The notes beneath the pieces are model-generated. The model did not search any database and had not been told where the DNA came from. It saw nothing but the letters and a program-made list of their open reading frames with translations. Positions 4,797-45,436 of a stretch of DNA of 53,562 bases are shown in pieces (the first letter of the stretch is position 1; the number at the start of each line of letters is the position of its first letter). The stretch comes from Parafrankia elaeagni (GTDB lineage: Bacteria > Actinomycetota > Actinomycetes > Frankiales > Frankiaceae). A program made the translations under genes and the position numbers. The stretch covers positions 268-53,829 of the forward strand of contig NZ_KB893740.1 in NCBI RefSeq assembly GCF_000374165.1, in the 5' to 3' direction.

Positions 4797-4860
4797 GCGG
4801 CGCCGCCGTGGTCCGCTTCCCGCCTGAACCACGGTGGCGGCTGGCCGTACGAGTTCGACG

Positions 4861-5781: not shown

Positions 5782-6297
5782 ATGGACGAGGCGTCCTATC
5801 AGTCGTTCGAGGGTTTCGTCGTCTCCTCGGGCGACCGTCTGCTGAGGACGGCCATTCTTCTGACCGGTAACCGCCACGCGGCCGAGGACCTGTTGCAGGG
5901 TGCCCTGGAACGCACCTACCGGCGCTGGGAGGCAGAGAAGATCATTCTTCCGGAGGCCTACGTCCGCCGGGTGATGGTGAATGCGGCATCGCGCTGGCGG
6001 CGGGCGAGACAGATCCGAGAGGAGTCGTTGGACGCGGCGGCCGAACGGGTCGGCGTGGAGGGAGTTCCGGACCTGGCGCTGCGGGACCAGGTGCTGAGGG
6101 CGCTGCAGGAACTTCCGAAACGACAACGTGCCGTAGTCGTCCTGCGTTATTTCGACGATCTGCCGGAAGCGGCGGTGGCTGAGATTCTCGGTTGCAGCGT
6201 CGGCTCGGTGAAGTCCCACGCGTCGCGGGCGCTTGCCCGGCTGCGTCTGAGTCAGCATCTGGGGGATGTCCGCATCCAAAGCGAGAGGAGGCGTTGA
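5782..6297 (+). CDS. SigE-family (ECF-type) RNA polymerase sigma factor
   Basis: 171 residues. Region 2 is seen in LLRTAILLTGNRHAAEDLLQ and region 4 in LPKRQRAVVVLRYFDDLPEA followed by an HTH (VAEILGCSVGSVKSHASRAL). Length and sequence fit the actinobacterial SigE family of group IV factors, which redirect RNA polymerase to stress or envelope regulons. The ATG at 5782 follows GAGGGGGGC. The stop overlaps the next start (TGATG), so it is translationally coupled to a membrane protein, the usual layout for a sigma factor and its modulator. Confidence 0.92.
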   Translation: MDEASYQSFEGFVVSSGDRLLRTAILLTGNRHAAEDLLQGALERTYRRWEAEKIILPEAYVRRVMVNAASRWRRARQIREESLDAAAERVGVEGVPDLALRDQVLRALQELPKRQRAVVVLRYFDDLPEAAVAEILGCSVGSVKSHASRALARLRLSQHLGDVRIQSERRR

Positions 6298-7148: not shown

Positions 7149-7679
7149 GGGTTTATTCTCAACGGTCGGCCGGCTGCCTGGTTGGAACGTTCGTGCCAGG
7201 TGTCGTGTCCCGCCGCGGATCCAGCGTGACGCCAACGGCTGGGGGCGAGGCCGTAGGCCTGGCGGAAACGCCGTGCGAAGTAGGCCGGGCTGCCGAAACC
7301 CCAGGAGCGGGCAATGGCCTCAATGGTGCGATGGGCGTGCTCGGGTGCGATCAGGTCGTCGCGGGTGCCTTCGAGACGTTTGCGGATCACCCATTGTTCA
7401 ATGGCTGAACCGCCATCCTCGCACAGTCGGTAGAGGGTACGCAGGGAGATGCCGTGCGCGTGGGCGGTGCGGGCAGGGGTGAGGCCCGGGTCCTTCAGAT
7501 GGGCGCGGCTGTAGGCAAGGACCCGGACGAGGAGGGTTTCCTCGGCAATGGTCCGGCGGGTCCGGCGGGTCCGGCGGTCGGCGGCGGTCGTGGAGTTCCC
7601 GGGCCGCTCCCATCTGCTGCCCGCGCAGGAAGGTTGGGAGGAGGTCGCCGACCACGCACTCGCCTGGGCTCTCGACCAT
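7121..7679 (-). pseudogene. AraC family regulator, frameshifted and lacking most of its sensor domain
   Basis: The C-terminal 130 residues form a complete AraC-type double HTH: the frame through RVLAYSRAHLKDPGLTPA, HGISLRTLYRLCEDGG and IARSWGFGSPAYFARRFRQA is open to the stop at 7121. Upstream, linker-like sequence ending RGQQMGAARELHDRRRP is in a different frame, with the switch within or near a repetitive Pro-Asp-coding tract around 7555-7590. No full ligand-binding domain is found before 7679. Presumably it once regulated the divergent molybdopterin oxidoreductase gene starting at 7790. A sequencing error could explain the frameshift but not the missing N-terminus. Confidence 0.65.
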
Positions 7680-7789
7680 TCCTGAGGCCGCGGGACGTCC
7701 CAGGCCGGGCTCGCCGCCCGGCGCGGTATCGGCGCAGGCGGCGGGGCCGGAGCGCGCGGACCCGTCCGGAATATGCGATCCTGCCGGGC

Positions 7790-10159
7790 ATGACCACGAA
7801 ACCGGGGCCGAACACGTCGACCGGATCGGTCACCGCCCTGCGGATCTGTCCGCTGTGCGAGGCGACCTGCGGGTTGGAACTGCGGATCTCGGACGGGCGG
7901 GTCGCATCAGCCCGCGGCGACACGAAGCATGTCTTCAGCCGCGGTTTCATCTGTCCTAAAGGCGCGTCGTTGCCGGCGCTGCTCAATGACCCCGACCGGC
8001 TGCGTCGCCCGCTGCTGCGTGACCGGGCGACCGGCGAGCACCGCGAGGTGAGCTGGGACGAGGCTTTCGCCGCCGTCCGGGCTGGGCTGGGCCGGGTGGT
8101 CGGCGGCCACGGCCCGGCCGCGGTCGGGCTCTATTTCGGTAATCCGAACGCGCACACGATGGCCGGTGCCCAGCACCGGCCATCGCTCATCCGCGCGTTG
8201 CGGACCAGGGCCCTGTTCAGCGCCTCGACGGTGGACCAGATGCCGATGCATGTCGCGTGCGGGCTGGTTTTCGGCCATCCGTCCCTGATCCCGGTGCCGG
8301 ACCTTGACCGCACCGGCCATCTGCTGATTCTCGGGGCGAATCCGGCCGTCTCCAACGGCAGCCTGTGCACGGCGCCGGATTTCCCGGGCCGGCTCGCCGC
8401 GATCCGGGCGCGGGGCGGGAAGGTCGTCGTGGTGGACCCGCGGCGGACCCGCACCGCGGAGCTCGCCGACGAGCACCTGCCGATCCGGCCCGGTTCGGAT
8501 GCGCTGTGGCTGCTCGCGCTCGTTCACGTGCTCGCCGCGGAGGGGCTCGTCCGGCCCGGCCGGCTGGCGGACCATGTGACGGGGCTGCGCCAGGTGCTCG
8601 ACCTCGCGGGCCCGTTCACGCCGGAGGCGGTCGAGGCCCGATGCGGCATCCCCGCCGAGACGACCCGGCGCACCGCCCGGGAACTGGCCGCGGCGCCGCA
8701 GGCCGCGGTCTACGGCCGGATGGGCACCACGACGGTCGAGTTCGGCGGGCTCACGAGCTGGCTGACGATCGTCCTGAACGTGCTCACCGGCAACCTGGAC
8801 GCGCCGGGCGGGATGATGTTCGGCCGGGGTGCGCACGGCCGCGCGGACAGGGTGCCGGCCGGTCAGCGGGGCGTGGGCCGTGGCTGGGGCATCGGGCGCT
8901 GGCACACCCGGGTGCGCCGGCTGCCCGAGGTGATGGGCGAGCTCCCGTCCGCCGCGCTCGCCGAGGAGATCGATACACCGGGTGAGGGCCAGCTGCGGGC
9001 GTTGTTCACCGTGGCGGGGAACCCGGCGCTGTCCACGCCCGACTCCGCCCGGCTCGCCGCGGCGCTGGCGCAGCTGGACTTCATGGTGAGCGTCGACCCG
9101 TACCTCAACGAGACGTCCCGGCATGCCGATGTGGTGCTTCCGCCCACCGACGCGGCCAGGGTCGGGCACTACGACTTCAGCCTCGGCGCACTGGCTGTCC
9201 GGACGGTGGCGACCTACTCGCCCCCGGTGCTGCCGCCCGATCCCGGCGGGATGGCCGAGCACGACATCATGGCCCGCCTGACCCTCGTCGCCCGCACGCT
9301 CGACGCCTCGCCCACCGAAGATCCTGCCGCGCCTGCCGGGTCTGCCGCGCCTGCCGGGTCTGGCGGGTCTGCCGTCGTGCCGAGCACGGACGAGGTCGAG
9401 GCCTTCCACGAGAGCCTGGTCGTGGACGCCCTGCGCCGCGCGACCAGCGACGCCGGCTCGCCCGTCCGCGGGCGGGACGTCGCCGAACTGCGCGCTCTCG
9501 TCGACGGGGAGACCGTCCCGGAACGCCTGCTGGACGTGGCCCTGCGCACGGGGCACTTCGGCGACGCGTTCGGGGCCCGGCCGGACGGCCTGCGGCTGGC
9601 CACCCTGCTGGCGAACCCGCACGGAATCGACCTCGGCCCGCTCGAACCGCGGATCCCGACCCTGCTGCGGACCGCCAGCGGCACCGTCGAGCTGTGCCCC
9701 GAGCCCGTCCTGGCCGAGCTCGCCCGGCTGCGTGCCACCCTCGACCGGGCGGACGCGCCGGACGAGGCCGAGCTCGCCCTGATCGGGCGGCGCCACCTGC
9801 GGACGAACAACAGCTGGATGCACAACGTCCCGGCGCTGGCCAGGGGCCGGAACCGCTGCACCCTGCTGATCAGCCCGCAGGACGCGGCCCGCCGCGGGGT
9901 GCGTGACGGCGGATCCGCGCGGATCACGTCCGCCGCCGGCTCGCTGGACGTCGCGGTGCAGGTCAGCGACGAGATGATGGCCGGGGTGGTGTGCCTCCCG
10001 CACGGCTGGGGCCACGGCCTGGACGGCACCCGGATGTCGGTCGCGGCGGACCACGCGGGCGTGAACACGAACATCCTGACCGACGGCTCGCGGGTCGACC
10101 TGCTCTCCGGTAACGCCGTGCTCAACGGCATTCCGGTGCGGGTCGTCCCGGCGGACTGA
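7790..10159 (+). CDS. Molybdopterin-dependent oxidoreductase (DMSO reductase/formate dehydrogenase-like superfamily)
   Basis: 789 residues. The N-terminus has CPLCEATC and a fourth Cys in FICPKG (C20, C23, C27, C55), the [4Fe-4S] cluster of this superfamily. Then come the bis-molybdopterin guanine dinucleotide domains (GANPAVSN, VVVDPRRTRTAELADEHLPI) and the C-terminal MopB-like barrel (LRTNNSWMHNVP; GVVCLPHGWGHG). A flexible Ala/Gly/Pro insertion near residue 510-530 is coded by short repeats. Cys157 lies in the part of the chain that often carries the Mo ligand, but I cannot align it firmly. No electron-transfer or membrane subunit and no Tat signal are seen, so a soluble single-subunit enzyme of unknown substrate is likely. 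Confidence 0.88.
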   Translation: MTTKPGPNTSTGSVTALRICPLCEATCGLELRISDGRVASARGDTKHVFSRGFICPKGASLPALLNDPDRLRRPLLRDRATGEHREVSWDEAFAAVRAGLGRVVGGHGPAAVGLYFGNPNAHTMAGAQHRPSLIRALRTRALFSASTVDQMPMHVACGLVFGHPSLIPVPDLDRTGHLLILGANPAVSNGSLCTAPDFPGRLAAIRARGGKVVVVDPRRTRTAELADEHLPIRPGSDALWLLALVHVLAAEGLVRPGRLADHVTGLRQVLDLAGPFTPEAVEARCGIPAETTRRTARELAAAPQAAVYGRMGTTTVEFGGLTSWLTIVLNVLTGNLDAPGGMMFGRGAHGRADRVPAGQRGVGRGWGIGRWHTRVRRLPEVMGELPSAALAEEIDTPGEGQLRALFTVAGNPALSTPDSARLAAALAQLDFMVSVDPYLNETSRHADVVLPPTDAARVGHYDFSLGALAVRTVATYSPPVLPPDPGGMAEHDIMARLTLVARTLDASPTEDPAAPAGSAAPAGSGGSAVVPSTDEVEAFHESLVVDALRRATSDAGSPVRGRDVAELRALVDGETVPERLLDVALRTGHFGDAFGARPDGLRLATLLANPHGIDLGPLEPRIPTLLRTASGTVELCPEPVLAELARLRATLDRADAPDEAELALIGRRHLRTNNSWMHNVPALARGRNRCTLLISPQDAARRGVRDGGSARITSAAGSLDVAVQVSDEMMAGVVCLPHGWGHGLDGTRMSVAADHAGVNTNILTDGSRVDLLSGNAVLNGIPVRVVPAD

Positions 10160-23361: not shown

Positions 23362-23733
23362 GGGGGTGACCGGCTTCGACTCCGGACGTCGAGGCAGGGG
23401 AAGCGGGCCGAGGATGAGCGGTTATCTCGTAAACGATCCGTTCAAAACAATAGCTGCCACTAAGACGCAGCCTGCTACCTCCGCTTACGCCCTCGCGGCC
23501 TGAGCAGAGACCAAGTAGCCGTCAGCCTGGGAGTTCCTCCGGCCCAGGACCTGGCGTCGACAGGAGGATCACCGTCCCACCCGGTCGCGGGGTGAGTCGG
23601 GAAATCTAACAGCGACTGAGCCTGCGCCGGCTTGCCTGCGGGACCGGCGGGGCTGAGAAAAAACGAGCAGGCTGCGCCCGGAGAAGCCCTGTGTCGGGGC
23701 CGGAGGACGCGGGTTCGATTCCCGCCACCTCCA
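23362..23733 (+). ncRNA. ssrA: Transfer-messenger RNA (tmRNA)
   Basis: The 5' end GGGGGTGACCGGCTTCGAC and the 3' end GGGTTCGATTCCCGCCACCTCC form the tRNA-like domain; bases 23362-23368 pair with 23726-23732. The tag reading frame begins at GCT 23453 and stops at TGA 23501-23503, giving AATKTQPATSAYALAA with the YALAA proteolysis signal seen in actinobacteria. tmRNA releases stalled ribosomes with SmpB. After the discriminator A (23733) the DNA reads CCC rather than CCA, so CCA would need to be added enzymatically. This end is also the insertion point of the conjugative element. Confidence 0.95.
23453..23503 (+). other. tmRNA-encoded degradation tag
   Basis: Sixteen codons (AATKTQPATSAYALAA) then TGA. 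The choice of the first GCT as resume codon is inferred from frame and from the usual Ala start; a second Ala codon follows it. Confidence 0.75.
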
Positions 23734-25411
23734 CCCATGTAGGCATTGCGCGAACCGCTCCCTTCGGGGGCGTTGTGGCTGGTAGGACGGCTGCGGCGCC
23801 CCCGCGGGGGGCGGTTTGCGTTGGTGGTCGGGTTGGGTCTGGTCGGTCCGTCTCTCCAGTCTCCACGTTGGCGGCGTCCCTGGAAGCCCCGGGCTCAGGG
23901 ATTTTGAAGATCGGTATGAGTCGGTCGGGTCCGACGATCTTCACTTCGGCGACGAGGGCTTCGATGAGGGCCTTGCGTCGGAGGTCATCGCCTGTCTCGA
24001 TGATCATCTCGATGTGCTTGACGACTGCCCGGAGGGTGGAGCGGGCGGGCATGACCGGTTCATCGTCGATCTCTTCGGTGAGCTCGGCTTGCCGGTGGCG
24101 GAGCTGCCTCTGCCTGGTGCGCAGGGCTTCGAGCCGTGTGGCGAGGGTCTCTTCGTCGAGGGTGCCGCGCTCGAAGGCGCCCAGGTAGCGGTCGATGGCC
24201 TGGTCGGTCTGGGTGAGTTCGGTCTCGATGGTGGTGAGTTCGCCGGTGTGGCCGGAGCGGGCGTCGCGGTGGCTGCGCTGGGCCTTGGTGACGGCGTCGG
24301 CGATGAGCTGCTGGTTGTCGCGGTAGAAGCTGGCGAGCGCTTTGAGCACGGCGGTGTCGACCTCGTCGGCGTCGAGGCGGGGGGCGTCGCACTTGTTGCG
24401 GTTGTAGCGGTTGCGGGTGTGGCAGGTGTAGTAGCGGTAGGTGCGGTTGCGGCCGTTGGCGCGGGTGCCGATGAGGGCTGTGGCGCATTGGGGGCAGCGC
24501 ATCCGGCCGGTCAGGTAGTAGTCGGAGGCGTTGGAGGCGCGGCGGGATTTGCTTTCGCTGCGTTCGGTGAGGATCTTCTCGGCGGCGTCGAACGTCTCTT
24601 CGTCGATGATCGGTTCGTGGGTGCCTTCGACGGTGATCTCGCGGAAGGTCAGCTCGCCCAGGTAGATCCGGTTGTCGAGGATGCGCAGGATCTGTATCGC
24701 GGACCAGGGGCCGCCGACGGAGGTGCGGTGACCGCGACTGTTGAGGTAGTTGGCGATGATCCGGGTGCCGAGGCGGTCGTGGACGTACAAGTCGAAGATC
24801 TTGCGGATGACGGGGGCCGTGGTCTCGTCGATGATGAGTTTCTTGGCGGTCTTGTCGACCTGGTAGCCGAAGGGGCATTTGCCGCCTTTCCACAGGCCCT
24901 TGGCGGCCTTGCGTTCCATCCCGGCGATGACCCGGTCGATGATCATGTCGCGTTCGAACTGGGCGAACATCGCCAGCATCTGGAGGAGCATGCGGCCGAT
25001 GGGAGTGGCGGTGTCGAACGGCTCCGTCGCCGAGCGGAACACGACCCCGGCCTGTTCGAGATCTTCGAGGAGATGGACGGTGTCGCGCAGGCTGCGGGAG
25101 AGCCGGTCGACCCGGTAGACGAGTAGGACGTCGATGAGCCCGTTGCGGGCAGCGGACAGGGCGCGCTGGAGGTCCTTGCGTTCGGTGGTGGCGCCGGAGG
25201 CGTCGTCGGCGAACCGCAGGGCGACGACCCAGTTGGGTTGGGAGTCGACGTAGGAGCGCAGCCGTTCTTCCTGGACCTCGATGGTGTAAGGCTGGTTCTC
25301 ATCGTCGGTCGAGCGGCGCAGGTAGATCCCGACCCGGACGATCTCGGGCAGCGCGGCGACGGCCTGCTTGGTTCGTTTCGCGGTGGTTCGGCGCGCGGTC
25401 GAGCGCGGCAT
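23606..25411 (-). CDS. Large serine integrase
   Basis: 601 residues. The resolvase domain begins GIYLRRSTDDENQ with catalytic Ser34 and has VYRVDRLSRSLRD and MLAMFAQFERD. The recombinase domain (KCPFGYQVDK, AIQILRILDNRIYLGEL) and a zinc ribbon (CPQC, then TCHTRNRYNRNKC) follow, then a coiled coil around residues 385-450. This is the integrase expected to insert and, with a directionality factor, excise the element. The last about 40 residues (from VEVAGIEPASS) are the antisense reading of tmRNA, so the C-terminus is formed by the attachment junction. Start ATG 25411 after AAGGAA. Confidence 0.93.
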   Translation of the reverse strand: MPRSTARRTTAKRTKQAVAALPEIVRVGIYLRRSTDDENQPYTIEVQEERLRSYVDSQPNWVVALRFADDASGATTERKDLQRALSAARNGLIDVLLVYRVDRLSRSLRDTVHLLEDLEQAGVVFRSATEPFDTATPIGRMLLQMLAMFAQFERDMIIDRVIAGMERKAAKGLWKGGKCPFGYQVDKTAKKLIIDETTAPVIRKIFDLYVHDRLGTRIIANYLNSRGHRTSVGGPWSAIQILRILDNRIYLGELTFREITVEGTHEPIIDEETFDAAEKILTERSESKSRRASNASDYYLTGRMRCPQCATALIGTRANGRNRTYRYYTCHTRNRYNRNKCDAPRLDADEVDTAVLKALASFYRDNQQLIADAVTKAQRSHRDARSGHTGELTTIETELTQTDQAIDRYLGAFERGTLDEETLATRLEALRTRQRQLRHRQAELTEEIDDEPVMPARSTLRAVVKHIEMIIETGDDLRRKALIEALVAEVKIVGPDRLIPIFKIPEPGASRDAANVETGETDRPDPTRPPTQTAPRGGAAAVLPATTPPKGAVRAMPTWVEVAGIEPASSGPDTGLLRAQPARFFSAPPVPQASRRRLSRC

Positions 25412-26117: not shown

Positions 26118-26837
26118 TCATGTCACCGCCCCGTGACGTCCGCTGTCATTTCCCGGGTCGGTCGGAGGGTCGGCGGGGAACTCCCACGGCGGCAGGTACG
26201 GGCTGATGATCGCGCTTTCGGGGGTGGTGAGGAGCTGGGCGCGGAAGAACGTGCGGCCGTCGATGATCGGTGGGTGGGCGTACGGGCAGATGATCCACTG
26301 GTCGGGTGGGACGGGCGTGCCGGCGTGGGTGCGGCCCCAGACGGTGGCGCCGGTGTAGACGGGGTTCGCCAGGACACGAGCGACGTTGGTGGAGGTCAGC
26401 TGCCAGGGCCGCTTGGTGGCGGGGCTCACCAGCGGGACGAGACGGTCGTTGTGGACGAAGCGGAGGCGCGTGGCGATGGCGCGGGGGCTGAGTTCGTCCT
26501 CGACGCGCCACCGGTAGATGAGTGCGATGACGTGGGCGGGGCCGGGGGCGATTGCGAGGCGGATGCCCTGGCGGACCCGTCCGTCAGCGCCGAGTTCGGT
26601 GATGCGGCGGGGGCGGTAGCCGAGGGGGACGGGTCCGAGGTGGAAGCCGGCGCGGACCAGGTCGATCTGGGCGGCGCGGGCCCGTTCGGTGGTCCAGATG
26701 TGATGGTCCGCGAGCAGGAGTGCCTGCCGTGCGGCACGGGCGGTGCGGCGGTGGGTCAGGCGCCACCACCAGCCACGCCGGCCGGCCGGCGTGGGCGGGG
26801 CAGGCGGCAGCGCGGGGATGGGCAGCAGGTCGGACAT
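26118..26837 (-). CDS. Stand-alone recombinase-domain protein (serine recombinase lacking resolvase domain)
   Basis: 239 residues from ATG 26837, preceded by GGAG. Residues about 65-220 match the DNA-binding Recombinase domain of large serine integrases: GFHLGPVPLGYRPRRI, HVIALIYRWRVEDELSPRAIATRLRF, VARVLANPVYTGATVWGRTH and PPIIDGRTFFRAQ. There is no catalytic resolvase domain before it and no zinc ribbon after it. The protein should bind an att-like DNA site without cutting it. Gene order suggests it is expressed with the integrase, so an accessory or directionality role is plausible; a fragment of a second integrase is the alternative. Confidence 0.75.
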   Translation of the reverse strand: MSDLLPIPALPPAPPTPAGRRGWWWRLTHRRTARAARQALLLADHHIWTTERARAAQIDLVRAGFHLGPVPLGYRPRRITELGADGRVRQGIRLAIAPGPAHVIALIYRWRVEDELSPRAIATRLRFVHNDRLVPLVSPATKRPWQLTSTNVARVLANPVYTGATVWGRTHAGTPVPPDQWIICPYAHPPIIDGRTFFRAQLLTTPESAIISPYLPPWEFPADPPTDPGNDSGRHGAVT

Positions 26838-26911
26838 GCGGGGCTCCAGCCAAAGGGAGAGCCGGCCGCGGCGGCGTGAACACACCCCGCCTCGGCCAGC
26901 GGAGGGGTGGT

Positions 26912-27712
26912 CTAGGCGGCCGAGTGGGGCGAGGCGTCGAGGACGGCGCGGGCCGGCGGCGGGTCCGGCGGTCGCGGATCGTGCGCTCGCCGACCGTCGG
27001 GGCGGAAGACGATCACGTCCTGGTGGACCGGGTAGGCCCGTGCCCGGGAGGTCGGCCGGTCCGTGCCGAGGTCCCGGGTATAGGGGACGGCGGTGAGCGC
27101 GATGGCCCGCTGCACAGGTCGCCAGCCGGTGTCCCGGCCGGCGACGGCGACCTGGCTGGCCAGGTCCATCCCGCCGGCAACGTGGTAGGCGGCGATGACG
27201 ACGAGGTGCCCGCCGGGCCGAAGCAGACCCCGGTAGGCGGCCAGCCGTTCACGTAGCCGGTCACCGGCCGGACCGGCCGGCTCGGCGGGGTCGGGTGGTC
27301 CGATCGCGGTCAGGACCAGGTCGACCGGTCCGAGTCCGGCCCAGGACTCGCGGTCGGGCAGCTGGTCGAGGATCATCCCGTCGCCGCGGGCGCCACGGGC
27401 CTTCGCCAGGGTGAGCGCGGCACGGGCGGCCTCCCACCGGCCGGGGTCGGTGGCGATGCCGACGGCGTGACGGCGGGCATGCACAGCCTCGGTCACGACG
27501 GCTCCCGGCTCACAGTCCGGGTCACAGATCGTGTCTCCGGGCCGGCTGTAGACCGCGATCGCGTGGGCGGCTACCGCCGGGGAAATCGCCGCACCCCCAG
27601 GCGGCAGAGGCGGTCCGCTGGCCTGGCCGGTGGCGATGCTGTGTCGGCCGGTGGACCAGACCGTCGCCCACTGGCCGTCGCGGCGCCCTGTCTGTGGGGC
27701 CGGGCCGGTCAT
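26912..27712 (-). CDS. DNA methylase-like protein with degenerate catalytic motifs (gene B)
   Basis: 266 residues. The fold resembles N4/N6 DNA methyltransferases: the SAM motif region reads DPDCEPGAVVTEAVHARRHA (compare DPFxGxGTT), followed by VGIATDPGRW, LRPGGHLVVIA, and a final DVIVFRPDGR strand. Where a catalytic (D/N/S)PP(Y/F) is expected there is TAIGPPDP without the aromatic residue, so activity is doubtful. Its start overlaps the stop of the upstream gene by four bases (ATGA), showing coupled translation with its paralogue. On conjugative elements such proteins may protect against restriction; here that is inference. Confidence 0.6.
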   Translation of the reverse strand: MTGPAPQTGRRDGQWATVWSTGRHSIATGQASGPPLPPGGAAISPAVAAHAIAVYSRPGDTICDPDCEPGAVVTEAVHARRHAVGIATDPGRWEAARAALTLAKARGARGDGMILDQLPDRESWAGLGPVDLVLTAIGPPDPAEPAGPAGDRLRERLAAYRGLLRPGGHLVVIAAYHVAGGMDLASQVAVAGRDTGWRPVQRAIALTAVPYTRDLGTDRPTSRARAYPVHQDVIVFRPDGRRAHDPRPPDPPPARAVLDASPHSAA

Positions 27713-28428
27713 CGGGGCACGCCCGACGTCGGCGACACGGTGGTGTGCGTGGCGAAGAGCAGGAGATCGGTGTGCACCCGGCGGGCCACGCTCGCCCGTG
27801 GCAGCGGTCCGGGCGGCGAGTCGAGTTCGTCGAGGGGGACCTCCACCAGGATGAACCGGTCGAGCAGCGCGAGCCCGTGGCGGCCGGCGGCGGCGGTCAG
27901 CTCGACGGTGGGGTCGATCAGCCAGCCGTCGACACTGTCGCTGCGGGTGATCACCGCCAGCAGCCCGTCGGGGGTGAGCAGACGGGCCCAGGGGACACCG
28001 CGCACCCAGCCGGTCCGCGTCGGGTCCACGACCGTGACGACCAGCGGGCTGCGGTCGTGGTCCGGACCCTCGTCGGCGGAGTCGAGTCCGGGTCCGGACC
28101 CGGACCCGGACGGTGGCACCGCTCGGACGGCGGGCGCGGTCCGGACCTGGACGCGGCGGCCGAGTCGGGACACGGACTGGCCCGCATCAGCGGGCCGGTC
28201 CGCCGGTGTCTCGCGGCGGCCTCTGGCGGGCGCGTCCGAGCCGGGCGGGATCAGGAGCAGGACCGGGTCGCCGGGCCGGGTGTGGGTGGTGACGAGCTGT
28301 TCGACGGCGGCCTGAAGCCAGCCGGCAGGCGGCCGGGCGGGACTGCCGGGCGGGCACGGCCAGACGGTCGCCAGCCGTCCTGCGGGGACGACAGCGCGGC
28401 CGTCGCGGTCAGGGTCCGATACGGGCAT
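27709..28428 (-). CDS. DNA methylase-like protein, highly degenerate (gene A)
   Basis: 239 residues from ATG 28428 with GAAAGGA upstream; first gene of the leftward operon. The segment LVTTHTRPGDPVLLLIPP lies where a methylase would have its SAM-binding motif, and WARLLTPDGLLAVITRSDSV, LLDRFILVEVPLD and RVHTDLLLFA resemble the later strands of the same fold as gene B. No SAM motif or catalytic motif survives, so it is probably a non-catalytic partner, perhaps forming a heterodimer with gene B. The middle has a Ser/Gly/Pro run. Confidence 0.5.
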   Translation of the reverse strand: MPVSDPDRDGRAVVPAGRLATVWPCPPGSPARPPAGWLQAAVEQLVTTHTRPGDPVLLLIPPGSDAPARGRRETPADRPADAGQSVSRLGRRVQVRTAPAVRAVPPSGSGSGPGLDSADEGPDHDRSPLVVTVVDPTRTGWVRGVPWARLLTPDGLLAVITRSDSVDGWLIDPTVELTAAAGRHGLALLDRFILVEVPLDELDSPPGPLPRASVARRVHTDLLLFATHTTVSPTSGVPR

Positions 28429-28917
28429 CGAGAGGTTCCTTTCACGGCGAGCGTTTTTTCGCGGCCGTAAAGAGAGACCGTCTGCTGGGCATGTCTCGGA
28501 CACCAGCACGGCAACTTTTTCCAAGATTTTTCTCGCTGGGCAGTGCCTAGTCCGACCGGACCATTGATCGCTGGCAGATCGCTGGGCAGTACTCCGAAAA
28601 GCCATCGGAATCTTTTTTCAAGATTTTTCTCGCTGGCATCGCTGTCCGCCGGCCACAAAGCCCAGCAATAGTGCCCAGCGATCTTCGCTGGATGCACAAC
28701 ACGGCAGGTCACAGCCCTGCTGTGCAGGATCGCACTCCCGCTGGCGTCGCCTCGACCCTGAGGCTGGCACGAACGCCGAATAAAGATCGCTGTGCTTCTT
28801 CTGGACGCCAGCGATCTTTTCTGTGCATCTACCGGAAGATCGTTCTGGCTTTTCGCTGGGCGTGGCGTGGATTCCTGGGTGCTGTCCGAAATTCCGTGAC
28901 AGCGAAGGACGGCGGTC
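28429..28917. promoter_or_regulatory. Divergent control region rich in TCGCTGG repeats
   Basis: About 490 bp between the leftward integration operon and the rightward conjugation operon, clearly less GC-rich than its neighbours. The heptamer TCGCTGG occurs on the plus strand at 28533, 28568, 28579, 28630, 28685 and 28853, and inverted at 28675 and 28808, several extended to TCGCTGGGCA. A 25-bp direct repeat (CTTTTTYMAAGATTTTTCTC then GCTGG) is at 28515-28539 and 28612-28636. It must contain both promoters; the repeats could be operators, iterons of an origin, or part of oriT. Confidence 0.7.
28515..28636. repeat. Pair of 25-bp direct repeats 97 bp apart
   Basis: Copies at 28515-28539 and 28612-28636 share a T-run, AAGATTTTTC and the trailing TCGCTGG. 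Two further TCGCTGGSCA copies lie between them. Confidence 0.85.
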
Positions 28918-39145: not shown

Positions 39146-40075
39146 GTGGTGCTGCTCATCGTGATGATGGGAGCCGCCGCCGCGGGGGCGGCCGAACGCG
39201 TCCTGTGCCTACCGGTCCTCGGCTGGTTCCTCGGCTGCAACAGCGGCGGAAGCCCCAGCCAGACCGCCCTCGACGACATCCCCGCCGACTACCTGAACCT
39301 CTACATGCAGGCCGCCCCCACCTGCCCCGGCCTGTCCTGGACGACCCTCGCCGCCATCGGCAAAGTCGAATCAGACCATGGTCGCAGTCGGCTTCCGGGT
39401 GTGGCCAGCGGCACCAACAGCGCCGGGGCCGCCGGGCCCATGCAGTTCCTCGCCCCAACGTTCGCCGAGGTTGCCGCCCGCCACCCGCTACCGGCGGGTG
39501 GCGCGAACCCGCCGTCGCTCTACAACCCCCAGGACGCCGTCTACGCCGCGGCGGCGTACCTCTGCGACAATCATGCCGCAGCCGATCTGACCGGTGCTCT
39601 GTGGGCCTATAACCATTCAGACGCCTACGTCGCGCAGGTCGTCACCCAGGCCACCGAGTACAGCTCGACCGGCGGCGGTTTCGGAGCCGACACCAGCCCG
39701 TCCGACGCCGGCTACGCCGCTGTCATCTACGCCCAGGGCCAGCTCGGCATCCCCTACCTGTGGGGTGGAGACGGGCCGGCCGACGGCGGCTTCGACTGCT
39801 CCGGGCTCACCAGGGCCGCCTACCAGGCCGCCGAGATCGACCTGCCCCGCACCGCGCAGACCCAGTACGAAGCCGGGCCTATCGTCCCGCCCGGAGAACC
39901 GCTCCAGATCGGCGACCTCGTCTTCTACGGCACCGCCGCCAACATCCACCACGTCGCGATCTACATCGGAAACGGGCAGATGATCACAGCTCCAGGTCGG
40001 AAGAAAGTGGTGAAGATATCCGGTTATAGGTGGAGCGGCGATGACTATTTTGGGGCAACCAGGCCGGGCACGTAG
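39146..40075 (+). CDS. Bifunctional peptidoglycan hydrolase: lytic transglycosylase plus NlpC/P60
   Basis: 309 residues from GTG 39146, starting at a hydrophobic segment (LLIVMMGAAAAGAAERVLC) that serves as signal or anchor. An SLT domain follows: LAAIGKVESDHGRS with the catalytic Glu near residue 76, AGAAGPMQFLAPTF, and YNPQDAVYAAAAYLC. The C-terminal NlpC/P60 domain has the catalytic Cys in GGFDCSGL (near 217) and His in NIHHVAIYIGNG (near 267). This VirB1-like enzyme opens the cell wall for the conjugation machine. The first GTG after the previous stop was used because the frame has no earlier start. Last gene of the transfer operon; repeat site A lies six bases downstream. Confidence 0.92.
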   Translation: MVLLIVMMGAAAAGAAERVLCLPVLGWFLGCNSGGSPSQTALDDIPADYLNLYMQAAPTCPGLSWTTLAAIGKVESDHGRSRLPGVASGTNSAGAAGPMQFLAPTFAEVAARHPLPAGGANPPSLYNPQDAVYAAAAYLCDNHAAADLTGALWAYNHSDAYVAQVVTQATEYSSTGGGFGADTSPSDAGYAAVIYAQGQLGIPYLWGGDGPADGGFDCSGLTRAAYQAAEIDLPRTAQTQYEAGPIVPPGEPLQIGDLVFYGTAANIHHVAIYIGNGQMITAPGRKKVVKISGYRWSGDDYFGATRPGT

Positions 40076-40080
40076 GGCGC

Positions 40081-40122
40081 TGTAGGTTCTCAAAAGAGAG
40101 GACAGTTTCTCAAAAGGGATGT
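40081..40122 (+). repeat. Dispersed site A: TGTAGGTTCTC with second TTCTC 20 bp on
   Basis: TGTAGGTTCTCAAAAG at 40081 and a second TTCTCAAAAG at 40107; the two TTCTC cores are exactly 20 bp apart. The site begins six bases after the NlpC/P60 stop codon. Confidence 0.7.
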
Positions 40123-40258
40123 CGCCCATCTGTCGCCGGCCCGACAGATCGATGAGAAAGTGGCTCGGCGTGGCGCCCTCGGGTTCGGCGGCGTGTGAGT
40201 AGGCCGCGCCAGTGGGCCCGACCTTCGTCGGAGGCGACCTCGAACGGGGGCACCGGCA

Positions 40259-40453
40259 GTCGCCGCGACCCGCGCATGGATCGAACTGCCCCGTACCGCC
40301 GCCAGCAAGCGAATGCAGGCCGCGCTCGACGCCGCCGGAACCGACGGCGACGCCGGCCGGCTCGCCACCGAGATCCGCGCCTACCAGGCCGGTCACGGCT
40401 CAGCCGCCCGCATCCTCACCCGCCACGGCTACCTGTTGCGCGAGTCCGACTGA
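40259..40453 (+). pseudogene. C-terminal fragment of an unknown protein
   Basis: One frame reads TRAWIELPRTAASKRMQAAL and, after a short Gly/Asp stretch, EIRAYQAGHGSAARILTRHG before TGA 40453. It looks like genuine protein, unlike the Arg/Pro sequence in the other frames, but there is no start codon after the in-frame stop at 40196 except an internal ATG leaving 46 residues. Probably the tail of a gene cut by recombination near site A. Confidence 0.35.
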
Positions 40454-40656
40454 GCTGCCCCCGGGCCGGCGCGTTCTGAGCTCTGCCTGTCGCCGGCGAC
40501 GCGCCGATGAGCATGGCGGCGTCGGGCCTGTGCAGGTGCGGTGTGGGCCGGACCGGCGTGGATGGAGAGGTTCCATCGGGCAGGTGATGCGGAAAAATTA
40601 AGCGCTCATGGTAGGTTGATCCACGTTCAGTAAGAGGGTCGCCCTGTGGAGGGACC

Positions 40657-41463
40657 ATGAGTGGTGGGGTCATGCCGTCGAGGTGGGCCGTCGAGCAGTT
40701 CGGCGAGCACGCAGCAGAGGTGGTGCGGCATGTGGTCACTGGCCTGGTCCGTGGCCAGCGGGCAGCCCGTCTGGTGCAGGAGACGGCCGAGCGCGAGGGG
40801 GCTGGGGACAAGCGGGCATACGGCAGCATGTGGGCCAGCCGCTACAAGTTCGTCGTCGAGCAGTTTGAGCTGGCCGACCTGCGCGGCTATCAGGCCCACA
40901 GGCCCAAGGGTGCCTCGTACAGCCTGGCTGTGATCAACGGACGGGTGCTGATCCCGTTCCGTCACGCGACGTCGCTGAAGGAGCCGATCTCCAGCGCGAA
41001 GCTGAGTAACAAGATCCCCCGCGAGGTCTCGCGGAACAACGGCGTGGAACCGGGTCCGACGCTGTTCGACGTCCCGGGTGGTGCCGGGACCACAACCAAC
41101 CCGACAGTGGCCCAAGCTGCCGCGGCAGCTAAGGCAGAGAACCTGGTGGTGATCTACGTCGCGTACGTCGCCAACGCCGACAGCGACGAGGTGTTGGCTG
41201 CCTGGTGGGGCACACCGAAGTCGCTGGAGGACGACGGCACCATGCTGTGGTCGCCTGAGCGGCTCGACATGACCATCGCCACTACGAAGACCATTGGCGG
41301 GCGCCGTAGTGACCTGCACGTGACAGGAACGAACGCCGCGACGGTGGGCTTCGCCCAGGGCGATCTGCCGCCGCTGGGTGTAACCCCGCGCGCGGAAACC
41401 GCCGAGCGTCCCTCCGCCGAAGCAGATGAAGCCACCGCCGAAACAGAAGACGGCGATGAGTAA
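40657..41463 (+). CDS. Protein of unknown function, operon partner of ImmA-type protease
   Basis: 268 residues, with GGAGGGACC directly before ATG 40657. I do not recognise the family. Visible features are a helical, charged N-terminus (EHAAEVVRHVVTGLVRGQRA), a central segment SLAVINGRVLIPFRHATSLK, a strand-rich stretch NLVVIYVAYVANADSDEVLA with a conserved-looking WWGTPK, and an acidic Glu/Ala tail. It overlaps the following HTH-ImmA gene by eight bases, so the two are expressed together. By analogy with other ImmA/IrrE pairs it may be the effector or target of the protease, for example a toxin. No signal peptide or membrane segment. Confidence 0.7.
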   Translation: MSGGVMPSRWAVEQFGEHAAEVVRHVVTGLVRGQRAARLVQETAEREGAGDKRAYGSMWASRYKFVVEQFELADLRGYQAHRPKGASYSLAVINGRVLIPFRHATSLKEPISSAKLSNKIPREVSRNNGVEPGPTLFDVPGGAGTTTNPTVAQAAAAAKAENLVVIYVAYVANADSDEVLAAWWGTPKSLEDDGTMLWSPERLDMTIATTKTIGGRRSDLHVTGTNAATVGFAQGDLPPLGVTPRAETAERPSAEADEATAETEDGDE

Positions 41464-42667
41464 GGACATCCAGCCACCGCTGTTCGCCGCATCCACCACC
41501 CGCGATCCCCGCGTAGGTCGCCCAGGTACCGCACAGCCCTCCCCGGCCGATGTGCACGAAGCGTTCGACCCCACCCGGTTGACTCAGGCGCGCAATCTCG
41601 TCGGGATGACCAAGCGGCGGTTGGCCGATGAACTCGGGGTGACCCCGGCCGCGGTCAGTCAGTACGAGATGGGCACCAACCGACCTCGCCCGGATCTCCT
41701 GCCCCGGCTGGCCGAGATCCTGGAGGTTCCTCTAGCGTTCTTCTTGACAGGACGCCCTCACGCACGGTTGGACTCGTCTGCCGCGCACTTCCGCAGCCTG
41801 CGTAGCACCCGCGCCTATCAGCGCGCCAAGGCCATCTCGTTCACCGAGCAGGTCTGGGAGTTGACCTATGCCTTGGAGAAGCGTGTCCAGCTTCCCCTAG
41901 TCGACCTTCCCGGATTCACCGGCGGCGAGGTCCATCCCGGCACGGAACTACCCAGCGACCCACCCGCCGCCGCCCGTGCCCTACGAACCACGTGGAGGCT
42001 AGGCACCGGGCCGATCACCCATCTGGTGCGCCGCCTAGAAGCACACGGAATCGTCGTGCACGTCCCGCCCCGCGACGAAGATATGCGGTCGGTCGACGCC
42101 TTCTCCACCTCACGGCTACCCCGCCCGGTGATCGTGCTGACACCGAACAAAACCGACGATGTCTACCGCCACCGATTCAGCGCGGCCCACGAGTTGGGCC
42201 ACTTGGTGCTGCATGGCGAGGCCACCCCCGGCGACATCACCCAGGAGCGCGAAGCGGACACCTTCGCCGCCGAGTTCCTCACTCCCCGCGAGGCGATCCT
42301 GCCCGAGCTACCCGCGCGGGCCGATCTGCACAAGCTGTCGCAGCTGCGTAGCTCCTGGGGAGTGTCAGTGAAGTCCTTGCTTTACCGCTGCCGCGAACTC
42401 GGCCTGCTGTCAGATTCAGCGGCCAGCCGTGCCTACCAGCGCCTGCACAGCCTGCAAGGGCAACCCGGCTTCGCCTCGGAACCCCCGGCCGGCTACCCCG
42501 GCGAGCTACCAGCACTGCTGTCCCAGGCGTTCGACCTTGCCTGTGACCACGGCCTGACGATCACAGACCTCGCTCGTGAACTGGCCTGGAACTTGCCGCG
42601 GGTCCGACAGATGCTCGGCATCGAAGAGCAGCGACCGGTCCTCCGCTTGCTCGGCGGCGAATCATGA
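41456..42667 (+). CDS. XRE-family HTH regulator fused to ImmA/IrrE metalloprotease
   Basis: 403 residues. An N-terminal HTH (LTQARNLVGMTKRRLADELG, then VTPAAVSQYEMGTNRPRPD; residues about 42-90) precedes an ImmA/IrrE zinc protease domain with AAHELGHLVLHG (HExxH near residue 245) and EREADTFAAEFLTP giving the third ligand. The C-terminal 90 residues may form a second DNA-binding helix set (HGLTITDLARELAWNLPRVR). In ICEBs1 of Bacillus the separate ImmA cleaves the ImmR repressor to induce transfer; here DNA binding and protease are in one chain. It may regulate its own operon, the partner protein or the ICE. Confidence 0.9.
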   Translation: MSKDIQPPLFAASTTRDPRVGRPGTAQPSPADVHEAFDPTRLTQARNLVGMTKRRLADELGVTPAAVSQYEMGTNRPRPDLLPRLAEILEVPLAFFLTGRPHARLDSSAAHFRSLRSTRAYQRAKAISFTEQVWELTYALEKRVQLPLVDLPGFTGGEVHPGTELPSDPPAAARALRTTWRLGTGPITHLVRRLEAHGIVVHVPPRDEDMRSVDAFSTSRLPRPVIVLTPNKTDDVYRHRFSAAHELGHLVLHGEATPGDITQEREADTFAAEFLTPREAILPELPARADLHKLSQLRSSWGVSVKSLLYRCRELGLLSDSAASRAYQRLHSLQGQPGFASEPPAGYPGELPALLSQAFDLACDHGLTITDLARELAWNLPRVRQMLGIEEQRPVLRLLGGES

Positions 42668-42861
42668 GACGTGCTCCCAAGTAACATCCCGACTCCTCGA
42701 TGGCGCGCTTCACTGAGCGCGTCATCGAGGACCTGTCCGATGCGGGCCGGCGGTTCGGAGCGGCTACGCGCCCCAATGCCCGCGACGCGATCCCAAGATC
42801 GCCGGTTGATGAGGAATGCGACAGGGTTCAGATAACAGCACGCTGCCAATCGAATGAGTTT

Positions 42862-42903
42862 TGTAGGTTCTCATCGGACACGGCCATTTCTCAGATGATG
42901 TTC
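42862..42903 (+). repeat. Dispersed site B
   Basis: TGTAGGTTCTCATCGG at 42862 and TTTCTCAGATG with the second TTCTC at 42888, 20 bp after the first. A third TTCTC follows 13 bp later. Confidence 0.7.
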
Positions 42904-42967
42904 TCGGTCTATCGCCTGGGACGGATCGGTGAGAAGGAGCAGCCTCAGTGCCCGTTCTAACTGATCA

Positions 42968-42986
42968 TGGTAGCTTCTCATCGGTG
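42968..42986 (+). repeat. Dispersed half-site D
   Basis: TGGTAGCTTCTCATCGGTG matches the first half of sites B and C; the second TTCTC is missing and is replaced by a TCGGTGC tandem repeat. Confidence 0.5.
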
Positions 42987-43221
42987 CTCGGTGCTCGGTG
43001 CTCGGTGCTCGGTGGACTTGGCGCCCTGGTCAGGGAATTTCGTAATCGTCTGTGGTGCTTGCGCGTGCCGGAGAACGCCCGTTGCGGCAACCCGGGTGCT
43101 TCGCTGGTCCGGCTGCCTCGGCCGTCGCTCGCTCGGCAATCCGGCCCGAATGTAAAAACATCCTTCGCCCCCGACGATGCGACGGATCGCCTCCGCTATC
43201 AATCTAGTAGAATCGAGTAAA

Positions 43222-44052
43222 ATGAGAGCAGCCCGGAACCTTGGCCTAGATATGCGGTCGCGGCAGCTGCGCCGCTGCGGACTGTGCGGAAACACCTCGA
43301 TCCTCACCCGGAGTCATGTCCCGCCGCAGACGGCCGGAAATGATGCTGGGGTCTCGCGCATGGCGATCGTAGAAGACGGGAAACGGGCATTCCTGGGTCG
43401 ACGCTCCGATGGTGGACTGTGGGTACGCGGGCTCTGCGGAGATTGCAATAACTTGGGAGGACGTCGCTATGATACTGCTTACGGAGATTTCGCTAAAGCG
43501 CTCCGCCCCTACGGCGGTGCGGCCAGACATCTCCTCGTAGAAAGAAATTCTGCCCCTGCGGTTCTCTTTGCTCCTGGCTTGGTATCGCGTGCAATCCTGC
43601 ACGGTATGCACGCGCTTAGCCCTCATCTCAGAGAGAAATTTCCGATCCTGGCAGATCAACTCGCGGCTGACGAGGAAGCGGTGCGGTTGCCTCCCGGGCT
43701 TCGACTCAGAGTTGCGTTGACCTATGGGTTGACGGCGCGGGTCTCGGGAGCTGTTCACGCTCAGCGAGTGCTTGACCTAAGGGAAACCTATTATGTGTTC
43801 GCCGAGGTTTTCTTTCCTCCTCTTGCGTGGGCCCTGTGCCCACCGCATCACGAGTCTATTCTCGATCGCGAGCGGTGGGTGGACGCAACAGATTGGGTCA
43901 GATATAGCCGAGAAAGAACTTCGGTGGACCTCCGAAACATAGCCTCCGGAGTCCCGATCGTTCAGCATCCGCTGCACCAGAATCCTGATGATTGGGTCTA
44001 CATGTTTTCAGACAAGATCACTCCGCTACTCGAAGGAAGGTTGCCCCACTGA
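43222..44052 (+). CDS. Low-GC protein with CxxC-type HNH-like zinc motif
   Basis: 276 residues from ATG 43222 (upstream frame open to 43177). CGLCGNTSILTRSHVPPQ near the start and GLCGDCNNLGGRRYD about 55 residues later form the four-Cys plus SHV pattern of treble-clef/HNH nucleases. The remainder (about 190 residues) has no motif I recognise. Codon use and GC content are clearly lower than the flanking genes, so it was acquired separately. It is bracketed by repeat sites D and C. A nuclease effector, for example for phage defence, is possible; the catalytic His is not certain. Confidence 0.65.
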   Translation: MRAARNLGLDMRSRQLRRCGLCGNTSILTRSHVPPQTAGNDAGVSRMAIVEDGKRAFLGRRSDGGLWVRGLCGDCNNLGGRRYDTAYGDFAKALRPYGGAARHLLVERNSAPAVLFAPGLVSRAILHGMHALSPHLREKFPILADQLAADEEAVRLPPGLRLRVALTYGLTARVSGAVHAQRVLDLRETYYVFAEVFFPPLAWALCPPHHESILDRERWVDATDWVRYSRERTSVDLRNIASGVPIVQHPLHQNPDDWVYMFSDKITPLLEGRLPH

Positions 44053-44403
44053 AGGGGGCTAGAAGCCTTCGCGGACCACTGCTCCGGTACGCGGAAGCCG
44101 GCACACCACCAAGTTCCGCTGGTCGAGACGCGGCATCGGCTGGTCAGGACCATCACCGCTGCGCCGGCCAGGAGACTCGGTCAGCGTGACGCAGGACAGC
44201 CTTCCATGATCAGCGCATACTCATACTTTGAATAACAATACTCCGCCAGTCAACTGCGATTTATGTAGCTTCCTATAAGAGACGCCGTTTTCTCGGATGA
44301 GTTGTCGTCCGCTTGCCGTGTCCGAAATCTCGACGAGAAGGCGGTAAGCGTGTCGCCGGGCGCCTGATGCGACGATGATGGCCCGAGCGCCAACGTGAGG
44401 TCG
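44053..44403. other. Gene-free junction with site C
   Basis: About 350 bp with low GC around 44210-44300. No gene seen; carries site C at 44264. Confidence 0.5.
44264..44305 (+). repeat. Dispersed site C
   Basis: TGTAGCTTCCTATAAG at 44264 and TTTTCTCGGATG with TTCTC at 44290; again 20 bp between the two cores (the first core is TTCCT). Confidence 0.65.
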
Positions 44404-44575
44404 TCAGGTGCCGATCCCCCGTGCGACGGTGCCGGTGTAGTGGCCCTGTCCGTCGAGGTTCCAGGCGATGATCCTGCGCGGTTGGATGCGGAGCACCTCG
44501 TTGGTGTCCTCCATCAGTGGCTGCTGAACGACGAGACTCTCGATGTTGCCGCGGATCTCCAGGCTGCGGCTCGGT
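44404..44575 (-). pseudogene. PPOX-class (pyridoxamine 5'-phosphate oxidase-like) protein, C-terminal remnant
   Basis: The minus strand reads SRSLEIRGNIESLV, a helix with EDTNEVLRIQPRRIIAWNLD, and a short tail to TGA at 44404. This matches the C-terminus of F420/FMN-dependent PPOX-type flavin proteins, where EIRG and RRIxxWxLD are conserved. An in-frame stop lies just upstream and no N-terminal half is found, so it is a remnant. Not a shadow frame: the plus strand here has no meaningful translation. Confidence 0.6.
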
Positions 44576-44638
44576 CTGGCTTCCGGGCCCTACCGACTCC
44601 TCGGATGTGCCCCTCGGGCCCGCGGTCGTGCTCGACCT

Positions 44639-45130
44639 TCACGTCCATGGCAGACGGATGGGACGCAGCGGTAGATCACCGGCTAACAACCGTCCTGCCA
44701 GCCCGGCCAGGCCGACGGGAAAGATCAGGTCGCCGGTGGTGTGCAGGTCGACAACGCTCCACCAACGATGTTCGAGAAGGTCGCGGCGTTCATCGTCGTC
44801 CTGGCCTGACAGGTCGATGTCAGATGAGGTCGTGCGGGAAAAGAAGTACCAGTTCGTCGTGACGAACACGCTGCCGTGCGCGTGCCACTCGCCGGAGTCG
44901 AGCGCGATCGGGCGTCCGATCTCGGCATGGGACAGCAGGTGTCCGGTCTCTTCCGCCAGCTCCCGCAGTGCGGTCTGCGCCGGGCTCTCACCAGGGTCGA
45001 TGGCGCCACCTGGAGTCAGCCATCCTTCCTGCGCCCAAGGCTCCGGCAGGTGGTGCCGGAACAGCAGCAGCCGATCGTCCGGACCCGCCAGGATGATCCG
45101 GGCGGTATCGCGGCGGGTCGGCGTGGTCAT
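44639..45130 (-). CDS. NUDIX hydrolase
   Basis: 163 residues from ATG 45130. The full Nudix box GGAIDPGESPAQTALRELAE followed by ETG is present after WLTPGG, so the metal-dependent pyrophosphohydrolase site is intact. The N-terminal strand RIILAGPDDRLLLFRHHLP and the later WWSVVDLHTTG fit the fold. The substrate (nucleotide or nucleotide-sugar) cannot be told. The frame stays open to 45247, but that extension is not family-like. It lies next to the PPOX remnant between site C and a degenerate inverted site near 45300. Confidence 0.88.
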   Translation of the reverse strand: MTTPTRRDTARIILAGPDDRLLLFRHHLPEPWAQEGWLTPGGAIDPGESPAQTALRELAEETGHLLSHAEIGRPIALDSGEWHAHGSVFVTTNWYFFSRTTSSDIDLSGQDDDERRDLLEHRWWSVVDLHTTGDLIFPVGLAGLAGRLLAGDLPLRPIRLPWT

Positions 45131-45436
45131 GGCCGCCGAGCATAACCGGGGTCGGGCGCCGCCACATGCCAGCAGCGGCATGGCCATCCCGACGCCTGCC
45201 GAGGGAAACGACAGATCGGTGAGACACCGCCAACGATAGATCGACAAGAACGGCCATGAAATCTTTGGCCGGCGGGAAGTAGAACGACAACAAGAATGAT
45301 AACCTACAGGCGCCGCATGCGCATTCGACGCGGCGCTGACAAAGACGTGGGAAAGAAACGCCTCTGCCGGCCAGATAGCCGGCGTGGGCGGTCCCGAGCC
45401 GGCAGCTCGATGTCCGGATTCAAGCGGTGGCAGTCG
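45131..45436. other. Gene-free spacer with a degenerate inverted repeat site
   Basis: About 300 bp, less GC-rich at 45240-45310. The minus strand at 45308-45276 reads TGTAGGTTATCATTC then GTTCTAC, resembling sites A-D but with 18-bp spacing and changes. No gene seen. Confidence 0.35.

Follow-up and report, generated by a model that had tools for sequence, protein, structure and literature searches.

Repeated two-part sites in an integrative and conjugative element of Parafrankia elaeagni: probable ends of Tn7-like transposons at a conjugation hydrolase gene

According to the cited parts of Benler et al. (PMC8649781), arrays of TnsB-binding sites of about 20 bp at both ends are general in Tn7-like elements, and one clade of these elements is dominated by Actinobacteria, with no member experimentally characterised as of 2021. 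We have analysed a stretch of 53,562 nucleotides from Parafrankia elaeagni (contig NZ_KB893740.1, positions 268 to 53,829; hereafter the window), in which repeated two-part sites lie among the cargo genes of an integrative and conjugative element (ICE). An earlier note on this DNA, made from its letters alone, knew of no described site of this kind; the TnsB-site arrays of Tn7-like elements are such a description. The repeated sites are very probably the ends of Tn7-like transposons, each an array of putative TnsB-binding units behind a 5'-TGT terminus. Most simply, positions 40081-45308 would form one element, flanked by GGCGC and starting 5 bp past the stop codon of an NlpC/P60 gene (nlpC).

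As described in the same parts of PMC8649781, the actinobacterial clade has in common with the elements considered here the proteins TnsA, TnsB, an AAA ATPase and TniQ, arrays of units of about 20 bp, a fixed place behind a conserved gene and defence-type cargo. The present elements differ in their apparent target, which is a conjugation peptidoglycan-hydrolase gene of ICEs and plasmids plus a foreign attachment motif, and in that several copies are mini-elements without tns genes; the likeness to the clade is one of description and not of a tree. The ends thus appear to be of a known kind, and the address at the conjugation hydrolase gene together with the foreign motif would be what differs. 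Tn7706 of Rhodococcus erythropolis, as presented in the cited part of PMC12915292, likewise has tnsA, tnsB, tniQ and tniB in Rhodococcus, with copies in many contigs; it differs in its size (19,377 bp, 19 genes), and the likeness is one of gene content.

A second comparison is offered by Tn6022, which is Tn7-like, and Tsy, which uses a tyrosine recombinase: the two share comM as their target, and Tsy encodes, besides this recombinase, a second, TnsF-like protein that combines a recombinase fold with zinc fingers at its N terminus (PMC10293859, in the parts cited, as for the comparisons that follow). Here too, Tn7-like and tyrosine-recombinase elements are found at one target, and the partner of the Tn7-like elements consists of a recombinase plus a large Cys-rich second protein. 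In contrast with Tn6022 and Tsy, the target is the 3' end of nlpC or a 56-bp motif, not comM, and the plasmid-borne Tn7-like elements that were read have no annotated separate TnsF-like gene. TniQ and the second protein of about 970 amino acids (aa) have no clear sequence similarity (best E 0.21). As in the plasmid-directed TnsE pathway of Tn7, the transposon is carried by conjugative DNA, but here its position suggests that one conjugation gene offers a sequence-specific site. NlpC, peptidoglycan, gyrB, dnaB and Actinobacteria are never mentioned in the cited text of Faure et al. (PMC10293859). The hydrolase-gene address is unreported in the literature covered on Tn7-like targets, ICEs and conjugative plasmids, which is weak evidence, as most subscription journals lay outside that coverage.

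Layout of the repeated sites

Searching the window for TGTAGSTTCTC-N15-TTCTC with at most three mismatches gave three matches, at 40081, 42862 and 44264 (0.24 expected; none of 100 shuffles reached three). Exact matches in the 7.59-Mb genome are limited to 40081 and 42862, and a reversed control pattern has none. With up to three mismatches, the whole-genome counts of the pattern (19+24) and of the control (23+23) are equal, so that the motif is not a chromosome-wide signal. TGTAGGTTCTCA-N13-15-TTCTCA is present in seven of 36 genomes of the window's family (designated by G numbers), and its control is absent from all of them. Neither chance nor a general signal of the chromosome accounts for the two-part motif. 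A blastn search of plasmids with 191 bp around site 40081 gave no match.

All three + strand sites and the inverted one listed in the earlier note were found where it had placed them; the inverted copy reads TGTAGGTTATCA on the minus strand, with its outer base at 45308. The consensus given there is exact for 40081 and 42862, but site 44264 reads TGTAGCTTCCT, two mismatches off, its second half TTCTC at 44290 being intact. The half-site located at 42968 does exist as a fragment, but it starts at 42969 (GGTAGCTTCTC) and has no second unit. This fragment (42969..42984, + strand, GTAGCTTCTCATCGG), which is 93% identical to the core of site 42862 and falls under the reporting limit of the unit model described below, is treated as a decayed fragment or chance.

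The repeats are real, but the sites are longer than the two parts first noticed. Each + strand site is a block of about 75 bp that consists of TGTAGG, two direct units 20 bp apart and one inverted unit, the units being about 18 bp; the inverted site has three spaced units. End A1, of the tnsA-side type (40081..40158, +), has units at 40087-40105 (+), 40107-40124 (+) and 40142-40158 (-); end A2 (42862..42935, +) at 42868-42885 (+), 42888-42906 (+) and 42919-42935 (-); and end A3 (44264..44339, +) at 44270-44287 (+), 44290-44307 (+) and 44319-44339 (-). End B, of the tniQ-side type (45209..45308, -), has units at 45285-45302, 45234-45250 and 45209-45224, with steps of 52 and 26 bp between their outer bases. 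The third units of A1 and A3, the units of A2 and the two inner units of B were picked by eye.

A unit model was built from 14 ends in other genomes, the window being excluded. Its four top matches in the window, at 40107 (score 28.8), 40087 (24.5), 44290 (21.4) and 45302 (16.1), all fall at the sites of the earlier note, and the next best is 13.2 at 28615. Nine window matches score above 8, compared with a mean of 2.6 and a maximum of 8 in random sequences (n=20). An array of the Tn7-like type is therefore given by the model as two units at A1 and one at B, the remainder being by eye. The layout of A1 recurs beside tnsA in L130, L131, L132 and L161 (L numbers designate stretches of other sequences) and in G003 and G014, and the B end of L081, a Rhodococcus jostii contig, has a spaced layout similar to that of the window. 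The idea that the inverted third unit might be a structured RNA or attC-like hairpin was given up without folding.

Relatives of the element and its insertion address

The candidate element of the window (40081..45308, +, 5228 bp) is delimited by its ends and by a target duplication: GGCGC at 40076..40080, directly after the stop codon TAG (40073-40075), is perfectly copied at 45309..45313. Core tns genes were not found inside, and the element is therefore filed as a non-autonomous derivative. Immediately upstream lies an SLT plus NlpC/P60 peptidoglycan-hydrolase gene (39146..40075, +; PF00877 8.8e-26, PF01464 3.2e-08), the last gene of the ICE conjugation block, whose 3' end would be the attachment site.

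The genes missing from the window are found between such ends in relatives. L081 (7037 bp) has them at both its start and its finish and encodes a TnsA-like endonuclease (PF08722, 27.6 bits for a cut-off of 26.5), a transposase frame of 772 aa, a TniB-type ATPase (PF05621) and TniQ (PF06527). The transposase of L130, near-identical to that of L081, matches the solved TnsB structure 7svw (E 3.3e-11). All four core genes (tnsA, tnsB, tnsC and tniQ) were found in relatives, by Pfam in L081 and by annotation in L130-L134. In the window's family, TnsA is located just within the A end of G003, where its match is split over two frames and the copy looks broken, and just within one A end of the two in G014. 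TnsA, TnsB, TnsC and a TniQ cut off at the contig end are present in G030.

A 5-bp target duplication is a hallmark of Tn7. Plasmids with a relative of TnsB account for 153 PLSDB records, of which the 11 with a TnsB at least 60% identical were read, each at its best place (some have up to four). Both ends and a perfect 5-bp duplication are present in 11/11, with seven different sequences; several of these plasmids are near-identical, so that independent events are fewer than 11. In the ICE family, GGCAA is present on both sides in G010 and G017, which represent one shared insertion, GCGTT flanks a 2597-bp element of G014 on both sides, and GATTT flanks, on both sides, a 6844-bp element of G028:C135 that contains only a TnsA fragment. 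No clean pair of ends was found in L135. Two places were left uncounted: G031:C1, with nearly the same sequence as the cassette start in G028:C135, and G024:C25, with a degenerate A-like end behind a motif copy.

These pairs bear on the proposal, made in the earlier note, that the sites are operators, at which a dimeric regulator on half-sites spaced by 20 bp would tie the cargo genes to one control. A spacing of two helical turns and an intergenic position agree with it. No fixed distance to a gene was observed, the next + strand gene lying at 576 bp, at 315 bp and, for the third site, being absent; moreover, relatives and plasmids have paired inverted ends with 5-bp duplications, and ends of the same kind are directly beside tnsA. 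We regard operators as extremely unlikely. IS21-type ends are also known to combine a TGT terminus with multiple terminal repeats, which would fit remnants of IS21-family or other TGT-ended insertion sequences. The genes that have such ends encode TnsA, TnsB, a TniB-type ATPase and TniQ, not an IstA/IstB pair; this explanation was dropped and has next to no probability. The large serine recombinase of the ICE (23606-25411), considered by its presence only, was set aside as owner of the sites, since the transposon genes explain the ends.

Returning to Tn7-like ends, the gene directly before the A end is annotated as NlpC/P60 (2) or as a peptidoglycan DD-metalloendopeptidase family member (8) in 10 of the 11 plasmids; in the eleventh (Nocardia NBC_01377) the A end follows a hypothetical protein adjoining an SCO6880-family gene. 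The S. virginiae element has a methyltransferase gene inside it, between the A end and tnsA. Among the more distant TnsB records (8 viewed of 142), a hydrolase gene precedes tnsA in 0/8 and dnaB in 1/8, a rough contrast because their ends are mostly unlocated and the real neighbour may be masked by cargo. In the window and in G028:C135, the NlpC/P60 gene whose stop codon precedes the A end is intact. The distance of the A end is nearly constant, 5-6 bp past the nlpC stop in G003, G010, G017 and G028:C135, and 7 to 26 bp past the hydrolase stop in L130-L132, L134, L136 and L140-L144. Whether at an nlpC end or at a motif copy, insertion occurred 16 to 18 bp past a CC pair (8 sites, by eye). In G028:C121 and G030, dnaB precedes the A end. 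Judged from gene order, the sampled lineage goes with the conjugation hydrolase gene, and dnaB is another address.

In the proposed mechanism, the target selector TniQ would recognise the conjugation hydrolase gene at its 3' end; TnsC would relay the choice of target, and TnsA and TnsB would excise the element and insert it at a constant position. The hydrolase gene would stay intact and the transposon would travel with the conjugative element.

An end search of genome contigs with a 21-bp period (the window sites have a 20-bp period) yielded 50 stretches, some of them plainly chance matches, and the same search of viral contigs yielded three. An end lies within about 20 bases past the gyrB stop codon in 25 of the 50 stretches (L032-L081), mainly from Betaproteobacteria by title. 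GyrB was confirmed by Pfam in one of them, L048, where a weak TnsA match (27%, 97 aa) is found 4.4 kb further in, and several are closely followed by a terminator-like hairpin (by eye). Many of the gyrB-linked ends may be solo ends.

Comparison of ICEs shows what changes at the ends. The backbone consists of the conjugation block up to nlpC, followed by a regulator block. Its alignment with G003, G010 and G017, at 78-88% identity, continues across the A end at 40081 and is taken up again at the B end in G010 and G017, and about 230 bp beyond it in G003. The DNA in between varies in both length and content, with for example an AAA/OLD-like protein of 688 aa between the ends of G010. The right-hand backbone resumes only at 48460, not at the B end, in G014, and does not resume in the G028:C135 stretch. 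That sites should lie at the boundaries of differing cargo in otherwise similar ICEs, as expected in the earlier note for a role in recombination, was largely observed, in G003, G010 and G017. Its recombination role can be retained in that these are probably recombination ends, but of the Tn7-like, transposase-binding kind and not a new type of exchange site. Cargo does differ, but a clean swapping cassette by cassette is only partly supported: the two inner sites have no partner ends, and it is the 56-bp motif that punctuates the cargo of relatives. Repeated landing behind one hydrolase gene would help to explain why cargo differs between ICEs, and would turn an odd repeat into a readable history of insertions, showing how cargo is acquired and exchanged at a single place of an actinomycete ICE. 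Actinobacterial Tn7-like elements would gain concrete ends, duplications and a candidate address favouring spread by conjugation.

Several observations weigh against this interpretation. The fit to the unit model is weak for A2 (6.8) and for the first unit of A3 (6.4). No B end pairs with A2, with A3 or with the second A end of G014, and the history of all three is a guess. The duplication of G003 is imperfect (GCGTT and AGCAT), and a lone 5-bp match is expected by chance about once in 1000 (by arithmetic), and oftener in GC-rich DNA, so that the case for duplications rests on the whole set. Recognition of the hydrolase 3' end by TniQ is inferred with position as its sole basis, and the nlpC places of the window's own family yielded no intact TniQ. 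In G003, G010 and G017 the A end is preceded by only the last 98-99 codons of nlpC. Searching the window with the L081 TnsA, TnsB, TnsC and TniQ proteins gave no match at E 1e-3; the host genome has, as its best-scoring TnsB match, a sequence of 34% identity over 168 aa, and the surrounding 18 kb showed no recognisable end of this type. Without a tns gene in the window, and with a distant TnsB lacking recognised ends, no activity in this host can be claimed. For the same reasons, the absence of tns genes and the 34% identity of the host TnsB match, the window element is most likely stranded at present; it could be mobile only if a partner supplied tns genes.

The truncated genes of G003, G010 and G017 are accompanied by another copy of nlpC about 4 kb upstream of the 3' piece. 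In L087 43-4619 (G003), L089 (G017) and L088 (G010) the order is a divergent nlpC (complete in G017, 73% identity), about 4 kb, and the 3' piece. This layout looks like another element inserted in nlpC, bringing its own 3' end.

Elements without tns genes are not peculiar to the window, as G010 and one place in G014 also have such mini-elements. In L161 (Rhodococcus opacus) a 310-bp mini-element with both ends (9340-9649) comes immediately after a complete element (2298-9336), and L162 (Nocardia aurea) has a 255-bp mini-element (6011-6265) with both ends and a duplication of 4/5. Since stacked, gene-poor copies occur in this lineage, the three A ends of the window are unsurprising. The mini-elements of L161 and L162 resemble miniature inverted-repeat transposable elements (MITEs) of a Tn7-like transposon. 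In a plasmid of Rhodococcus sp. AH-ZY2 (L139, 1-13000), three distinct TnsA-containing Tn7-like gene sets adjoin.

The 56-bp motif and its putative owner

Both inner A ends of the window are preceded by a copy of a 56-bp motif. A degenerate copy (42811..42866, +, profile score 62.3) has its last bases replaced by A2, and a second copy (44211..44266, +, score 48.9) has its last bases replaced by A3. The last third of the consensus (n = variable), GnCGAATACnGCAnGGTTCGAATAACAGCACTCCGCCAGTCAAATGAGATTTATTC, resembles the nlpC 3' end of G014 and G015. A pattern for the motif core, written from copies already seen, has 22 matches in 11/36 family genomes and 0 for the control. A profile built from 29 copies in scanned regions, including the window copies if these passed the seed filter, detected 33 copies in 22 regions, with 0 matches above 14 in 770,320 shuffled positions (single-base shuffle); 33 is a count and not a frequency, as the regions were partly chosen for holding the motif. 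Most of the 33 copies are not followed by a Tn7-like end.

Copies are arranged in a row between nlpC and the regulator block in G014, G015 and G001, all in one orientation with one exception in G014. Since G032 and several other motif stretches have no nlpC nearby, the motif is not tied to nlpC alone. Motif rows that punctuate cargo were seen in L118-L119 (G032:C1 2611729-2631649), L122 (G015), L123 (G031) and L085-L086 (G014), and a cassette start that follows nlpC in G014 recurs after a motif copy in G001. One motif copy of G014 is interrupted by a putative Tn7-like element with a perfect duplication, and insertion of such an element into the motif is shown this once. Sites 42862 and 44264 would be the ends of further, decayed insertions into copies of the motif, which would imitate the nlpC 3' end.

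We considered whether the repeated sites (TGTAGGTTCTC) could instead serve an integron-like or serine/tyrosine recombinase system as sites of cassette recombination, as might be suggested by the change of cargo at the sites, by the cassette-boundary motif directly before two of them and by the use of the same hotspot by tyrosine-recombinase elements. The 56-bp motif is however a different sequence, mostly present on its own, and the sites in question form inverted pairs of an A and a B end, with 5-bp duplications, beside tnsABC-tniQ, which makes this proposal very unlikely.

A rival within the Tn7-like interpretation is that 40081 and 45308 belong to different stacked elements whose intervening ends were deleted, equal 5-bp flanks simply reflecting repeated use of one target position. 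Its probability is part of, and not additional to, that of Tn7-like ends. The tandem insertion in L161 is a precedent, and the window has three A ends for one B end, but what stands before the inner A ends is the 56-bp motif, neither an nlpC end nor a B end, so that they were not inserted at nlpC. One insertion and two at the same spot are indistinguishable because both give the same duplication. We consider stacking doubtful for this pair of ends, and keep a single element as the simplest description.

The putative owner of the motif was found in G001, where a tyrosine integrase of 389 aa starts about 120 bp behind nlpC (PF00589 3.9e-17, an ordinary Phage_integrase match). It has 13 matches in the family. 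Four, of which one is the query and two are partial with internal stops, are at least 75% identical; two of them are located behind nlpC and two behind a motif copy. No motif match was found at three of the nine lower-identity matches, those that were viewed (two in G032, one in G017:C229). The next gene is a frame of about 970 aa that overlaps the integrase; its product is rich in CxxC pairs and has a C terminus like that of a recombinase (both by eye), no match in Pfam or PDB, and Trp in place of the presumed catalytic Tyr in both copies (by eye). Most likely, on the basis of these arrangements, the 56-bp motif is the attachment site of a Tsy-like tyrosine-recombinase element that uses the same hotspot. 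The four copies lie behind nlpC or the motif, where Tsy has comM, and the element is called Tsy-like at most because of this difference of target.

With moderate confidence, we propose that a lineage of Tn7-like transposons, with a TniQ that would recognise the hydrolase 3' end, may home by sequence on conjugative plasmids and ICEs and, in one ICE family, also use the attachment sites of a co-resident Tsy-like element, and that the shared address may build stacked, partly non-autonomous arrays of defence cargo. It seems that two unrelated machines contribute to a single cargo array at one address linked to conjugation. The parallel with Tn6022 and Tsy at comM suggests that target sharing by unrelated elements may be common.

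Cargo and neighbouring genes

Four genes were recorded as cargo of the window element. The first encodes a 268-aa protein (40657..41463, +) with no match in Pfam, NCBIfam or PADLOC and is paired with the second, which encodes a helix-turn-helix plus ImmA/IrrE (M78) protein of RmrA type (41426..42667, +; PF06114 2e-19, PADLOC RmrA 2.6e-97). In this pair (40657-42667) the 268-aa protein occupies the toxin position beside the RmrA-type protein. The third gene (43177..44052, +) had been labelled HNH-like; this label found no support, as the 291-aa product has no match in the same three databases. The fourth encodes a NUDIX protein (44639..45247, -; PF00293 3.6e-17), and the first codons of its listed frame overlap the B end.

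Elsewhere in the window, an IS66-type transposase gene (PF03050) is truncated at the window edge (1-785, -). A three-gene operon (26118-28605, -) sits between the ICE serine integrase and the conjugation block; one of its genes has a Recombinase domain and two belong to no family, and their counterparts in G014 are 53-65% identical.

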